Assembly (NCBI GenBank): GCA_964036275.1
Contig: OZ038433.1
Coordinates: forward strand, 41,387,336-41,451,335
Length of the DNA: 64,000 nucleotides
DNA from: Litoditis marina
Lineage: Eukaryota; Nematoda; Chromadorea; Rhabditida; Rhabditidae
Direction of reading: 5' to 3'
A model generated the notes under the pieces. It was not told the DNA's origin and ran no database searches. It saw only the letters and a program-made list of their open reading frames with translations. Below, in pieces: positions 35,401-44,400 of the stretch. Every line of letters starts with the position of its first letter. Position 1 is the stretch's first letter. The position numbers and the translations under genes were made by a program.

Positions 35401-38400
35401 TGATCAGAACTATCGCCCACTGAAATACAGACATTTCATAGATATAATGGCAGTTAGGAACAATCGACATTAGTAATGAGCATACTAGAGTAAAGTTGAC
35501 CGAATAGTCGCGAAAATTCGAAAAACGGTCTTCTTTTCTGCGAATGGTAGCCAAAATAGATATTATCAACAGTCTATCAAATAGAGTGAACTTTTGCCGG
35601 GAATTCTGAACTTGTTATTTATACCGCCACATCTTGAGGTCGACATGTCAGCCATAACTGGTTGCGGTAATAATTCCCGACGGAAAACAACGAAAATTGA
35701 CGTTTCTGAATCGAAAGCGAGGTTTTTTTTTGGGTGGAACACTAAAACATTATACTGTTGGGGGTCAATGTAAAAACTCGAAGGTATACTGTATACACAT
35801 CCCGCAAACTCACCTCATAGAGCTGTTGGAAGTTGTCGGATGAGTGCGTCACTCGTGCAGGCGAATATCCTAAAACCGAGAAAGACCATAACATGAATAA
35901 TTCAACCATTGTACATAATTACAGACTAAGAAATCTGACGATATGCTTTCATACAAATAGATTCTCTTGCTAACTCACAGCTTGTTGTCTTCTGTTGGAA
36001 ACACTCTGCTTAATAAGGGTGAACTGTGAAACATCAACAAGTCGCGCATTTGCATATAGCATTTTTGAACTATGATCTGTTGAATGTGTTTAAAGCAGGA
36101 CGATTATGTGGACCAATCCCGGCGCTTCAGTCCTTTAAACTGCAATACATTTTTCAATTGCAGTTGAAAGGACCGTTGGCACGGGATTGATCCACATATT
36201 CGTCCTGCTTTAAGTTGTCCATACAAACTGACCTAGCCAACCGACAATATCCTCGATGGCAGTGAAGAACTTTTCCTCCTCTTTTTCCGGGTTGGTATCA
36301 TCGAAGCGGAGATTGCAACTACCACCGTAAGCCTGAAAGAACAGATACAGTTCGAGTTAGAAACTATTCTGAACTTCGCAGACTAATAGCATATAGATTA
36401 GAGAGCTGAATTCATAAAGAATTTCGGGTGGACCCAGCATGTTGCTCTAGCGAACCACCTTAATGTGTGTGCACGTGGAATTTACATAACATTTTCGAAC
36501 TTTTGCCAGAGATTTGATAATTCACATTCATGTAATTGTCATATTATGTCCTGACAAAAACTGATAGCTTCCGTTTGCCTTTAGGAGGAAGACACGTTTT
36601 AAATTAAACGTGAATCAGGAAGTACAACAACACTCCTACATCGTGAATGCGAAAAAGTGAACAAACTACCTCTATTGAAGCTTTATAAAAAAATGACGTA
36701 CGAAAGAGAACACACCTTAGCGTAGCCGAAGTTAATGTTGATGGCTTTCGCGTGTCCAATATGCAACACACCATTAGGTTCGGGAGGGAACCGAGTTACC
36801 ACCTGTAATAGAAAAAAACTATCTCATTTCGAGGAGGTGCTTTACCTATGTATTCAAGAATTCAAGTAAGCTATTTGGGCCAATTACCTACTTCTTTTTG
36901 ACGATCTCCTATTTTTAAACGTACACGTTTCTCATTCGAGCGAGTTGTTGATCAGAAACGCTCAGTGGTAGAAAAATCAGTCATTCGAGCCACGGGCACT
37001 AGAGACAATTCAAAACATGGAGAACATGAATTACTAAAACTCTACTGTCCATATTTCACGATTTCACCATACACCAGTAAAGTTGCCCGAATAGTCAGAA
37101 ATGTTCTAAAAAACGGACTACTTTTCGCCGACAAAAAGAAAATCGATCTACTTTTTTGGAAAAATCATGAACTTTCTTTCACGTGTTTACCTCTGAAAAA
37201 GGACTATTTTTTGTCGCTTAGTCGAACCTTGCTGGTGTTCGGAGTTCACCCACCTTTCCGTTGACGGCAGCAACGTGTTTAGCCAGAATCTCCTTTGTCT
37301 TGGGTGTTGTGACATAGCCATCGGTAGTGTAGTTTTCACCGACCTGAAAGTGGCACATGCGAGTACACACACTTCTATTAACATGCCCAAAATTATAGAT
37401 ATCTGCTGTGGAAACGCAACCCTCCATCTTGTTTGAGCCACAGCCACTCGACAAACTGTGTTTTACTCATAATGCATTGAATTAAAAACATCGTTCATCG
37501 ATTCGAAACGTCTACTTTTTCAGAATAACTAAGCAACCGGAGAGATCGAGACAGCACTTTCCCGATATTTTCTAAACGGACAAATTGAGTACGAGAACAG
37601 GGTCATTACCTTGTGGAAATTCGCACGAGTCTTCATCAGTTCTTCAATTGTGGCGGCTCCTTGCGACTCTAGAATTGATCACAATTTCACAATTCAGAAA
37701 GATCTAACACTTCAGTAACTTTTAAAACCAGCGAAACAAAGAAAAGAGCTTTTTGAATACCTCGCATTAATCTAAATCAAAATTAAATTGACTCTTTTCG
37801 TTATAAATGGAAGTCACGTCTCACACTTTTCTGTCAATTGAAAAGCGAGAAAATCAAACATGACAAGAGGCTGAAACGAGACGAATATTGTTTGCGTGAG
37901 ACCACACTATAGGTAAAATACCCCATCAAAATGGCGCTGACCCATGCCTGCCATTCTCTTTTCTGAAACTTACGCTCATATTTAAAGCAAAAATCGTTGA
38001 AACGCAATAAAATAGAGAAATAATCACTTTTACAGAGGTATCAGGCCCGTTGTTAGGGATACGTAAGTTCATTTTAGTGGCACTGGCGAACTGGTATTTA
38101 ACTATTCTACCTATGGAACACACCACACATACACCGCCAAGGGCCTCTCACTCCCTAGAAATTGTCGCGACCCCTCCATGTTTTCTCTTATCGCGACCCC
38201 ACAAAACAGCGACATTCAACTATTTTCTGTAAAATTATCGCTGATTTTGTATGAAATTCGTAAGTTAACAGCTCGCGACCCCTACTTTTTACAAGAAATT
38301 GTTCGCCACTCCCCCTTTCATGAGAGACCTTGGCGATGTATGCACCACACCATAAAACACAAACCCATTCAGCCAATCTTAACGTCGGAAATTAAACTAA

Positions 38401-41400
38401 GGTTGGAATGGAAGTGTCTGTTTTAGCGAAATCTCGTATAAATTACTCCAATTCCAATGTACATAATCATAATATGGTTTAATTACCCAAGTTTGAGGTT
38501 TCCTTCTCGTCCTTGGGTCGGAGTTCTATTATCTTTCTACGTGGTTCGTGGAAAGTTGGTTTGCGGAAGTCTACTCCTCTTCTTCTAATTTATCAGGTAT
38601 ACTTTTACTATTAAAATGTATTACACCACACCCCCGCCTCCCATTTCACATTTTGTCCGTCCCAATACTGTTCCGTCCCACCATGTGGCTAAAACCACCT
38701 CGTTTTGTCCATCGTTTCCTAACAATTCCAACCTTGTCACGTCTAATGGCGCGGCAAACGTCATCCGCCCACGTTCTCTGTTTTCTGAACACTTTGTCCG
38801 TTTCACTGTAAATGGTTCCATTGTTACTCGTCCCAGCCTACGTTGTCCATCTGAAGACGAGCTCATCGACTACGCTATTCCTACCATTCCTTTCATTGCA
38901 CCTTTCAATGATGACCAAGTGAAGAAACGCTCTGTGGTCATGTATGGCCTTCCATCTGCCCCGCCCCACCTTTCGAGCGTCCTCAAGAGGAAATGGTACT
39001 TCTGGATCTTCTATAGGTTGCTGGATTATACCGGTCTCGAAGGTCACGTCACTTCATGTTTCCCAATGGGAAGGGAATATTTCAATGTTAACCTGAAGTA
39101 TAGCACGCGCACTGTCAAAATTATCCTTGACAACTCCCACGACTCCTCTTATTTCATCAAGAGGTTTGCACAGCTAACACAATTGCATGATTTCAGGTTT
39201 GCCCTATTGCACCTTTCAGCTCGTGCTAGTATGGGTGATGCGGAGAGAGCCAAGTGGCGTGCAGACAGGAAGAAAGCCCCCCATACCAATCGTCCTGCGT
39301 CTGTTATGCACATGTCTGTCCATTCAAACGTCCCTTCACGTTCACATTCTCCTTCATCTCAAATGTCCATATCTCCTGTCCGCAGTCATGTGTCACATTC
39401 GTCTCATGTACCACCACATGTCGAGGGTGCCGTTGTTCAGGAAAACCAGACTTGTGCCACACCTTCTTCTCAACCCCCTTCCAAAATTCATTGTGGTACA
39501 ACTGGCTCGCCAGAACAGCAACACCCTGCGTCTCACAAACGCAGTCGGGCTGTATCTCGTCCTTCCAGGAGGAGAAACAAGTCGGCTGCCGCGGCTACAC
39601 CTAATAGGCGTGTCGTAACTCCCCTCATTGTTAACCTTCGTGAAAAAATCGCGAAGGCGGGGTCCAAGCGAACAGCGGCTGGGGCAGCTGCAGATTCTGA
39701 GACTGGGCGAGGCACCACGCATCCGACTCCCTCGGAAAACAAACCCTCCGAGGAAGCGGTTGCAACCTAGCCGCTCCCAGCTCTGTCTCTTCTCTCCCGG
39801 TTACTGGTCCCCCCGCTCAACTGTCTACGTCTTTGCCTGTTCCCATGTCCTCGTGTACGAAATCTCTAAACTTTGTCCTACTGAATGCCCGAAGTCTCCG
39901 TAACAAGACCGTGGAATTTCAATCTCTACTTTACTCCAAAATGTTTGATGTTCTCTGTGTATGTGAAACCTGGCTAACGAGTGATTTCTCTAGTTCCCTA
40001 CTAGACCATAAGCATTCCTTCACTGTTATTAGAGCCGATCGTGAAAATAGAGGTGGTGGAGTAGCTATTTTTGCGGGTAATCACCTGACTGTTTCTGAAA
40101 TTAACAGCCAAAGCATATTAGGAACTGAGGTTATTACTCTTGATATTTCCAAAACTAGCTCAGATATTTTCCGCCTTATTTTGGTTTACCGTCCCCCTTC
40201 ATGCGACAGCAAAAACACAAGTGCGCTTTTCAAATTTTTAGAAGATCAAATGTCGGTATCATACCCCTGTGTAATTACTGGTGATCTCAACTTTCCAATT
40301 TGTGATACTCAGAACTTACACGCTTGTGTTCAAGGTAACATACTTAACTCGTTTGTTTCCGACAATGAATTAAATTTCTTGCATGATTTACCCACTCGCG
40401 GTAATCATTTTTTTGGATATTATACTTTCGAATGATAATAGCCTTGTTGAAAACGTGAAAACCATGTGCAAGTTTTCAAATAGTGATCACAACATGCTAA
40501 GTTTTTCTGTCAATATTGAAGATCGTCCGATACCAAATGAAGTCACGCCACAGTGGACAAAAGGCGACTATAGCCAGATAAATTTCTACCTGGCACATCA
40601 AGATTTTTCATTTGTTTATGATATGTCCCTATCTCTCCAAGCAGTTTATGACCGATTCATCAGTATTCTAAAATCAGCAATTAATACTTTTATTCCACAT
40701 TCTTCACCGCGCGATAGATTGTTTTCTCCTGCTCACATCGTACGATCGTTCAATTCAAAAAATAAGGCATGGGAAAGTTTTATTAATGGCACTGGTAGTT
40801 TTTCAGTTTATTCTGTGTGTTCCAAACGGCATACTTTGAACTGTAAAAGATTTGCCATGAATTCTGAACAGAAGGTGATTGATTCCAGAGACCCGAAACG
40901 TTTTTATGGCTACGTTAACTCGAGAATAAAAGACTCGAGTAAAAGCACCATTTCGCGTATCAATAGTATGGAGAATCCAGCCAAGGTTCTCACTTCTCCT
41001 TCTGACGTAAGTAACTGTCTTTCCCAATTTTTCCATTCAGTTTACAGCGAGGGCGCTATTATCGATACGCCCCCTGATTTCTTTCCTCCTAAATTACCCA
41101 ATTTTCCTGAAATAGTTATCAACTCATCTCATGTTATTTCAGCTATCAAACAACTAAGTGATAAACAGTCACTCACCCCGGAAGGCATTCCCTCGTATTT
41201 CATCAAAAGAGTTTCGGATACGCTCCTACCCCATCTCACTTTTTTCTATCAACGGTCGCTTATTTCTGGTAGTATTCCAAAACAGTGGAATGAAGCGATA
41301 GTTATCCCTCTACTCAAAAAATCCCCGCGTATTGATCCGAAAAACTATAGACCGATTAGTCTAACCTCCTCGTTTTGCAAAATATGTGAAATTTTTCTGA

Positions 41401-44400
41401 GTAAACGACTTCTAAATTTTTTCACGTCAAACTCCTTGCTTGACCAGAATCAATTTGGTTTTCTACCGGGTCGCTCCACTCTGAGCAATCTCATGTCCTG
41501 TATATCGTCCTGGCAAAATTCACTGCAAAATAACAAACCAGTAGATTGTATCTATGTTGACTTCCAAAAAGCTTTTGATTCTGTTTCCCATCAGCTCCTT
41601 TTGTACAAATTGCAAAAATATGGTGTAAGTGATGTTTTGTGCAAATGGATTGCCAGTTATCTGTCAAACAGGTCATTCAAAGTACGGGTGAATGATTGTT
41701 TGTCATTACCAAAGCCATGTACGTCGGGTGTACCACAGGGTTCGGTCATTGGCCCATTGCTGTTTCTTATTTATGTTAATGATATTTCTTGGCGTCTAGC
41801 TAGTCCTTGTTTTCTTTTCGCTGACGATCTCAAAATCTTCAGAGAACTAAATTGTGATTTTGACAGCAATATACTTGAAAGTGATCTCGAATGTATCTCG
41901 ATTTGGGCTACTAAATGGCTTATGAATATTAACGAGGCTAAATCCCAGCATTTGTCAGTCAATAGTAGTTCACATCCTAGTCAATACACATTGAATAAAG
42001 TAGTTATTCCAAACAACAATTCGGTTCGTGATCTCGGTGTTACGGTGTGCAACGATCTCTCTTTCAGATCTCATATTTCTGAAATTGTAAAGAAGGCAAA
42101 CAGGGTTGCAAATTGTATTTTGAGAGCTTTTCAGCTGCGTAAAATTTCCAGCTACAGAAAGGCTTTTATAACGTATGTTCGTCCAATTCTTGAATATGCG
42201 TCTCCTGTGTGGTCCCCCAACACTGTGATGGATACAACCAGTGTTGAAAACGTGCAACGACGTTTCACTCGTATTGCGTTCAGAAAATGTGTTAGCAATC
42301 CTCTCACTTTATCTTATGCGGGTCGTTTGGTAAGTTTTCAACTTAAATCACTTGCGTATAGACGTTTGGTATTTGATCTCTCCCTTTGTTATCGAATCAT
42401 CCATGGTTTTGAAAAAAAATCCTTCACTACAGCTATTTACGATAAGCAGGTCAAAAAGGCCTCATTCATTTCAAATCTCGCGAAATTTTGCTAGTAAAAG
42501 GCAAGTTTTTGGTTCGTTTGCGAACAGAATGCCAGCTATTTGGAATTTACTTCCAAGTCATGTAGTGGAAGCAGGAACTCTATCTGCTTTTCACGCTCGT
42601 CTGGAAAAAGTGGACTTGTCTACTATTGTACCGTCTCTTAAACTGGACTGATCCCAATGGATCTTCCCAGATATGAAACGGTTATACTACTTTTCAGGAT
42701 ATTTCCGGGGATTCTGGCAGCACCGCATCGAAATCTTTAGTTACCGAATTCAATATTTTTTGGACTTATGATGTAAGTAAAATCTTTGCGCTTTTTTGTC
42801 TTCATACTCATAATGAGACATTTTTCACGCCAAACTCACCCCAAATCAATCAACTGCAAAACGCACTATCAAAACTATTTGGATATCCGAACGAGTTTGC
42901 GTGTCATCGCCTCTCCCCCCCTTTCCACCAAATCTTGAGTTGAACTCCTCTGGTTCCCTGTATGTTCCGATTATGAGCGTATGTCTATTTCCAGGCCTGG
43001 TGGAGAGATGGGCGCCGAGCCAGTGTTAATATTATATGATGGCACCTAGTCCATAATATAATATACTGTTTTGTTTATGTTTATTGTGAAGATATAGTTT
43101 CGATTCTGTTCTGTTTCTCCATTTTGTGTTTTCTTCTTGTTGTGACTTCATATTTTGCTGTTTTCTTTTTTGTTACCTCTCACTTTTCCACTGGAATAAA
43201 GTATTCATATATATAATTGCTATAAAACTGTAAATCAAAGGAGAACACTGTAAACGTACCTTCCTCGACAGCAGCATTCTCCACTTTTTTCTCTTTGGCG
43301 GGACCCGACTTCTCTTTCGGTTTATCATCCTTCTTCGCCTGTAACACCGAATACGTGAATTTTCGGGAAAAAACTGCAAACTGTTCACTTGTACTTGAGA
43401 AAGTCGCCGGAATGAGCAATTTCTTAGAATCGAAGTACCTGTAGTTCGAAAATATGCATTTGGGACCGAGCACAGAGCTCCACTAGTGTAAATGCAAATG
43501 GGTAGATTTCTAATATATACATTGGTAAAAAGGGGTCCAACCGGGCTCTTCCAAAGTGAAGGGGATCAGACCGCTTTAGTTGCAACAATGAGAGGGTGGG
43601 AGGGCTAGCATGGAAGCTGCACCTCCTCCTCCCCCCATTGCGCAGCGAAAGTGAAGGAGGTCATTTGGTAACTCTTGTCAAAAAGTGAAGGTAGTACCAT
43701 CTCAGGTGAGTTTGTGTTCATGCCCCTGATGCATACAGTTACACAAGTAAGGTTCAACTGTTCGACTGAAAGAAATCCGTTTTTGCATTTAAACCCTTCA
43801 AAATAAATGAATAGAGGTATTGCAAACACACCTTCTTTTTGGGTACCATGTCATCAGCGGTTTTAGGGCCCAACAGTTCGAGTATCCGCAGATCCACCTC
43901 TTTCTTAACATACGATCCATCGGCCCACGGCAACAGGGAACGAATTTCTCCTGCAAGAGAAACAAATATGATCGAGTATGATAGTCACAGTTTTCTTTCG
44001 ATGCCTAAAACCATAAATATAACTACATCGTACTAATACATTGTACCTCGTCCATACGAGAGGCGACAGTGTTGTGAACAGAAAAACATTCAAAATCGAA
44101 TTTCTGTCTGGGCAACCAAACTACAAAAACGGTGTGATATTAGATTTTCACCAGTAAAATGAGACTCTTTGAAATCGGGGTATTCAAAGTTCCGATTGTA
44201 AGAAAAACGGGTGATTCCATGGATCATTTATGCTCAACTTCACTTTGGTGCATAGTGAAGCCATACACCAGGTTCGATCGACTATACGACTATTCGACAA
44301 AAAGTAATCCGTTTTTCAAATTTCCTCGTTTTTGACGAAAACGTAGAACGTTTTGTGGATTTTTGTGGCTATTCGGACAACTTTACTGAAGTATGAGTGA

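Follow-up and report, generated by a model that had tools for sequence, protein, structure and literature searches.

The SL1 spliced-leader sequence stands at the 5′ end of a LINE clade in the nematode Litoditis marina

Nematode transcripts lose their 5′ ends to trans-splicing, and this is a difficulty for a LINE that has to retain its own start and promoter within its RNA. One LINE copy of Litoditis marina begins with the spliced leader SL1 itself, which raises the question of how the leader came to stand there and how copies of this kind keep spreading. The copy lies in a stretch of 64,000 nucleotides (C4:41387336–41451335, hereafter the window), and the genome searched for its relatives comprised 261.8 Mb in 522 contigs. 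The original prediction, made from the letters of the window, had taken the copy to archive one trans-splicing event, in which the RNA of the element received SL1 and was then reverse transcribed.

A LINE copy that begins with SL1

The window holds one perfect SL1, GGTTTAATTACCCAAGTTTGAG, which matches at all 22 nt without a mismatch and is also the single match in the 64 kb when up to 3 mismatches are allowed (shuffle mean 0.00, 100 shuffles). It lies on the same strand as ORF1, which starts 118 nt 3′ of it, and comparison of copies places the 5′ boundary of the LINE at G1 of SL1 (Table 1). The match and the copy boundaries thus bear out what had been predicted of the position, namely a perfect SL1 on the sense strand, at the exact 5′ end of the copy and 118 nt before ORF1.

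The element is an APE-type LINE (non-LTR retrotransposon), in which ORF1, without a Pfam match at E 0.01, is followed by an ORF2 with an Exo_endo_phos domain before the RVT_1 domain. ORF2 of the window copy is split over frames, and long open frames are present in copies elsewhere in the genome. A protein search with the reverse transcriptase (RT) part returned 6048 relatives among 7968 scored candidates, and the best named worm matches among those listed were a Caenorhabditis brenneri protein (35% over 57%) and a Toxocara canis ‘X-element’ RT (46% over 63%). The LINE runs antisense to a glutaminyl-tRNA synthetase (QARS) gene and lies between its exons, and is thus intronic (the exons nearest the LINE were picked by eye). 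A check of four copies for target-site duplications gave a longest common word of 7 nt, at inconsistent places, and no clear duplication.

Table 1 Features of the LINE copy and its surroundings, in window coordinates.
Feature	Position	Strand	Evidence
Glutaminyl-tRNA synthetase (QARS) gene segment	36213..45197	−	Pfam PF04558 and PF00749 (two exons) above cut-off, PF04557 below
SL1, 22/22 nt; G1 is the element 5′ end	38476..38497	+	match; boundary by copy comparison
LINE 5′ untranslated region	38498..38615	+	
Segment corresponding to GTACCTTCTC... of A′, which is SL-RNA-intron-like; an indel puts family A (GTTTCCTTCTCGTCC) out of register	38498..38512	+	
CTTGGGT, complement of SL1 nt 10–16 (38485–38491); predicted hairpin, inner stem across the SL1/GT junction	38512..38518	+	
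CTAATTTATCAG, 3′ splice-site-like; AG ends 99 nt after SL1	38585..38596	+	sequence
ORF1, 384 aa	38616..39770	+	open reading frame
ORF2 endonuclease part, Exo_endo_phos PF03372	39833..40435	+	Pfam
ORF2 reverse transcriptase part, RVT_1 PF00078	40383..42494	+	Pfam
ORF, 99 aa; probable C-terminal portion of ORF2, in a different frame	42352..42651	+	inferred from position
Element 3′ end, about here: GGAATAAAGTATTCAT(AT)n	43194..43213	+	copy comparison

SL1 heads in three families

When the 263 nt behind SL1 of the window copy, which defines family A, were used as a genome query, six places were found, and all six carried SL1 at the same base. The full 22 nt were present in the window copy and in L060, L061, L062 and L064; L063 carries SL1 from nt 6 or, in an alternative reading, at full length with 3 substitutions at nt 2–5. 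Identity to the window copy was 99.7% over 4.7 kb for L060 and L061, 99.5% over 3.2 kb for L062, 97.8% for L063 and 90% over 672 nt for L064. Counted at ≥90% RT identity, family A occupies at least 20 loci, 15 of which had no head match in the 263-nt search.

An RT search of the genome, which gave 65 matches with 63 of 1267 candidates scored and hence a lower bound, contained two relatives of family A, termed A′ (RT 63% identical) and A″ (57%). In a tree of eight RTs, all from this genome, A, A′ and A″ formed one group apart from the five others, with a support of 100/100. We compared the expected 5′ ends at six loci of the 57–65% RT class and at three further family-A loci. L082 (A′) starts with a perfect SL1 followed by GTACCTTCTCCTGCTTGGG, and L085 (A″) with SL1 from nt 4 followed by GTACCTCCCGGATCTCGTCTTGG, which could also be read as 2 substitutions at nt 2–3. 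At L091 (A′), nt 2–22 of SL1 overlap a partial second SL1 (TTTAAATACCCAAGTTT), an arrangement that slippage at the GTTT repeated within SL1 would produce. L083 was taken to be an internal part of an A′ copy that carries an insertion and has its head, L091, 0.8 kb upstream; L084 and L086–L090 had no head in the expected 5′ region.

SL1 thus stands at the start of all nine heads found for the clade, at the same junction and in three families, in a sample of nine copies from one genome. Six heads have all 22 nt, one has nt 2–22 within the partial tandem SL1, one begins at nt 4 and one at nt 6, and six of the nine end exactly at G1. Since the nine heads belong to three diverged families, SL1 is an old, common part of the clade. 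With none expected in shuffles and SL1-headed copies at nine separate loci, chance or an assembly artefact is a negligible explanation.

Searches with the leaders alone returned no head without SL1 and no outron, SL1 being present in 6/6 heads of A, 2/2 of A′ and 1/1 of A″ among the best candidates scored. The pattern made of the 3′ part of SL1, GT and CTTGG occurs at 10 places, which are the nine heads and one SL-RNA-like repeat. L064 has 0/22 changes in SL1 versus 51/634 behind it (a result that by itself has a chance of about 16%), and the leaders of different families reach 73–77% aligned identity only with many gaps, SL1 being unchanged in the six full heads. These comparisons suggest that SL1 of the clade is either constrained or renewed.

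Other SL1 places and other LINE families

Perfect SL1 occurs 765 times in the whole genome. It is followed by GT plus C, G or T at 14 places, by A, C or T at 9 and by G plus A, C or G at none, which leaves up to 742 for GTA. Among 30 SL1 loci compared, 11 of them from one tandem array, 21 continue with GTACTTT like the SL RNA gene. Several of the places with SL1 and GTA (for example, L012, L014, L018 and L024–L030) are dispersed SL-RNA-gene-like repeats, and the two such repeats that were checked both have a TACGGA motif at −44. L042, L045, L046 and L047 belong to another repeat, in which SL1 stands between TTATATATAA and GTTCACTATCC... and homology extends upstream of SL1 too, and L056–L058 (C3:17560109 on) form a tandem of a 5,153-bp unit with SL1 and CGTGG.

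Two further loci concern host genes. At L044 (C17:6295265, − strand), a perfect SL1 is followed by an intact intronless ORF of 116 aa, recognized by eye as ATP synthase c, and at L053 (C2:8046540) by an intronless ORF of 87 aa with a weak Pfam match to COX8. Both look like SL relics, that is, processed copies of trans-spliced host mRNAs, and ordinary SL archiving seems to occur in the same genome too. Dinoflagellates recycle SL-bearing cDNAs (Slamovits and Keeling 2008, as cited in PMC9311404), a process that likewise archives the SL in genomic DNA by reverse transcription, as seems to have happened at L044 and L053. It differs from the LINE heads in that the available text (PMC9311404) describes it for host genes, and not for a mobile-element clade that retains the leader.

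For the RT families B, D, E and F on C1 and C2, for which the list of SL1 used here is complete, no perfect SL1 lay on the same strand within about 5 kb upstream of any of 10 RT places (judged by eye). A search with the family-B leader gave 12 matches, 4 of which start at least 59 nt inside the query; SL1 was found in one of the 12 (L068), and the other 11 reached at most 20/44 in local alignment to SL1. The places of B, D, E and F and the family-B leader matches rule out SL1 heads as a general LINE trait. The exception, L068:1715–1835 on C216, is a family-B LINE (RT 31% identical) that begins with SL1, GTTTCCGATTGCACT and CATTCGCA. It is a rearranged, chimeric copy in the 5S/SL1 array, with a degenerate second SL1 in an upstream G-rich tandem, and because the GTTTCC after its SL1 is the same as in family A, it may have acquired a family-A head. 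A search for SL1 followed by GT in viral_contigs and genome_contigs gave 0 matches.

Flanks and insertion sites

The upstream flanks were mutually unrelated in the eight of nine heads tested (all but L091). Of 55 flank pairs, 4 were equalled by no more than 2 of 100 shuffles, the best pair being the window and the SL gene (0/100); we read these four as near chance. None of the eight flanks tested contained SL gene upstream sequence or a PSE-like motif (by an ad hoc definition from SL genes), and a TACG motif of our choosing, present at −40 to −44 in three SL or SL-like genes, occurred in 0/8. In the eight heads tested, the unrelated flanks argue strongly against an SL gene or a target site as the source of SL1. 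They also dispose of one objection that the original prediction had raised against itself, that further element sequence might lie upstream of SL1; as to a second, that the locus might be a variant SL RNA gene, the SL1 RNA model RF00198 gave no match at window positions 38376–38776.

NeSL-1 offers a model in which insertion is site-specific, next to or within SL RNA genes, and SL1 is target DNA. Such elements exist in nematodes, and NeSL-1, CRE and SLACS resemble the clade as non-LTR elements tied to spliced-leader genes, NeSL in worms; they differ in that the SL is their insertion target and their endonuclease is restriction-like, whereas the clade carries SL1 inside and sits at unrelated sites (PMC3636483). 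One family-B copy does lie in the 5S/SL1 array, but for the clade the unrelated flanks, the lack of SL gene upstream sequence in 8/8 of those tested and the APE-type endonuclease make such an origin very improbable. The element does not fit the class of NeSL-1-like, SL-targeting LINEs, as there is no restriction-like endonuclease after the RT (an APE domain precedes it) and the eight flanks tested show no insertion into SL RNA genes.

Two flanks have features of their own. At L060, AATTTAACCTA stands directly before GGTTTAATT and forms a near-perfect palindrome with the start of SL1, as fold-back of a cDNA end might leave. L064 starts directly behind an antisense tRNA-like sequence (by eye).

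The bases behind SL1 in A′ and A″ resemble the SL RNA intron

The SL RNA gene of the species lies in a 5S-linked tandem array (L001) and reads SL1-GTACTTTCTCGTTCTGACCC; it scores 56.3 bits against RF00198, below the gathering score of 75, and L082 and L085, like the window copy, had no match to that model. After SL1, A′ and A″ start with GTAC, as in unspliced SL RNA. When the 15 nt directly behind SL1 were compared, without gaps, to the SL RNA intron, A′ agreed at 12/15 (shuffle P = 0.0003; 0.0027 with GT fixed) and A″ at 10/15 (P = 0.008; 0.05 with GT fixed). Family A agreed at 3/7 (P = 0.46), being out of register with the intron because of an indel and changes, and a gapped test over 25 nt gave P values of 0.02–0.035 (0.09–0.13 with GT kept). 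The P values of the ungapped test, which covered 14 sequences, are uncorrected, and in the same test two unrelated SL1-bearing repeats reached P 0.03–0.05; the retrocopies L044 and L053 showed no likeness to the intron (P 0.22 and 0.87).

These bases are moderate evidence that the clade took its head from an unspliced SL RNA, or from the gene for it, and not from the SL1 exon of an mRNA that had been trans-spliced, because trans-splicing would remove the GTAC start of A′ and A″. The claim that the window copy archives one trans-splicing event is not supported, since the head is on 9/9 copies in three diverged families and A′ and A″ continue like unspliced SL RNA. As a full account, one-off trans-splicing of the window copy is ruled out by the nine heads.

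A wider form of that account would make each SL1-headed copy the dead-end product of a hidden, outron-bearing master, whose trans-spliced RNA was reverse transcribed. A hidden master would explain the junction, and the retrocopies L044 and L053 suggest that RNAs do take this route. The original prediction had pointed to copies with an outron in place of SL1, yet none was found among the 6 A, 2 A′ and 1 A″ heads (best candidates scored); three unseen masters would be needed, and the SL-RNA-like bases behind SL1 speak against this origin, which we consider improbable.

In A and A′, SL1 nt 10–16 are predicted to pair with CTTGGGT 20 nt on, with an inner stem across the SL1/GT junction. Compared with shuffled leaders, the hairpin energy gave fractions of 0.041 (A), 0.014 (L064), 0.0055 (A′) and 0.46 (A″), and the count of SL1–leader pairs was not unusual in any family (0.16–0.23). 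The SL RNA prefix, too, has a predicted inner stem at these SL1 bases, but this stem differs from the pairing of the Rfam model. Further downstream, a YAG follows SL1 at +99 (A), +88 (A′) and +90 (A″), and the GT after SL1 together with this YAG would fit a cis intron that joins SL1 to the ORF1 leader. A search for SL1 joined at this YAG gave 10 places at 3 mismatches, none of them with the family-A leader. At C16:27801179/27802010 and C17:3199120/3200022, the 3′ part of SL1 is followed by GTATATTTGTT, in pairs of opposite orientation 0.8–0.9 kb apart.

SL1 might instead be renewed in each cycle. Read-through from a flanking promoter would give RNA with an encoded acceptor, ...TTTGAG/GT; the old SL1 and the flank would be lost as an outron and a fresh SL1 spliced on, which would keep SL1 perfect and the junction constant. 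With such renewal agree the exact G1 start in 6/9 heads, the unchanged SL1 across families, the host mRNAs that seem to have been retrocopied with SL1 (L044 and L053) and the SL1 trans-splicing of retroelement RNA known for Cer1 (PMC3315495). Against it stand the GTAC and pyrimidine tract after SL1 in A′ and A″, which resemble unspliced SL RNA, and a better acceptor-like site, TTTATCAG, at +99, at which nevertheless no joined copy was found; among the heads, no other SL and no 5′-transduced flank was seen. The acceptor would moreover be a weak one, as GAG is a poor acceptor in nematodes. We regard renewal as the strongest of the rival explanations, although an unlikely one.

A putative DNA-encoded head

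We favour, as the probable explanation, that SL1 is a DNA-encoded, inherited head of one APE-type LINE clade, derived from SL RNA and with the transcript start at G1. An ancestor of the clade would have joined the front of an SL RNA, unspliced and comprising the SL1 exon and the first intron bases, to its 5′ end, either by a template jump or RNA joining in reverse transcription, or by insertion into an SL RNA gene and read-through. From then on, transcription would start at G1 of SL1, as does that of SL RNA itself, every transcript would begin with a ready-made SL1 and the head would be carried into every new copy. Transcription of SL RNA genes starts at SL1 G1, and a LINE that keeps this start would make RNA that begins with SL1, leave full copies that end at G1 and take the head along. 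An encoded head would also answer how copies without an outron keep spreading, a question that the original prediction had left standing.

The head may have been retained because it acts as a promoter element or start site, or because the nematode machinery for export or translation accepts it as a leader, without trans-splicing. SL1 has effects on translation, and work in Ascaris reportedly identified it as an internal promoter element of SL RNA genes; promoter activity of the head alone is putative, as the PSE-like motif is absent from 8/8 flanks. A role as leader is plausible by analogy with C. elegans, where mRNAs with only marginal trans-splicing carry SL-mimicking hairpins at their 5′ ends (PMC9984361).

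More tentatively, the heads would be consistent with a clade in which the start of SL RNA (SL1, splice donor and initial intron bases) has become a built-in, portable start site and leader. Such a clade would produce SL1-headed RNA without trans-splicing, would not need an outron promoter and may offer SL1/GU as a donor. As to mechanism, the choice lies between inheritance and renewal.

Relation to known systems

In C. elegans, Cer1 has SL1 on a spliced 2.4-kb mRNA, and its 8-kb RNA is not trans-spliced at that site (PMC3315495). It is similar to the clade as a nematode retroelement with SL1 on its RNA, as the RNA of the clade would have; it differs as an LTR element, and an encoded SL1 is not stated for it in the available text (PMC3315495). 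The Pr77 promoter of trypanosomatid LINEs is similar in that a LINE 5′ end is bound by the SL gene promoter factors TBP and SNAP50; it differs in that the available text does not call it SL sequence, and that factor binding was tested for Pr77, whereas the clade is known from sequence alone (PMC8190864).

Mammalian LINE-1 chimeras have the 5′ side of the RNA joined to tRNA, 5S or 28S rRNA, 7SL, Y or 7SK RNA, or a spliced first exon, and their authors speculate on 5′ UTR swapping (PMC13174262). Those chimeras are individual insertions (a few to 21 loci per newly found RNA type; PMC13174262), whereas in the clade a single head, probably donated by SL RNA, is common to three diverged families. 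No earlier case of a LINE with an encoded SL head was found in the literature searched, with most subscription journals outside its coverage.

SL RNA would be a further likely donor of LINE 5′ ends beside mammalian 5S and tRNA, and one kept over about 40% RT protein divergence. If true, the explanation makes it testable whether SL1 as a bare sequence, without trans-splicing, brings about transcription start, export or translation, and a LINE clade with its own encoded SL1 would directly answer the loss of the 5′ end.
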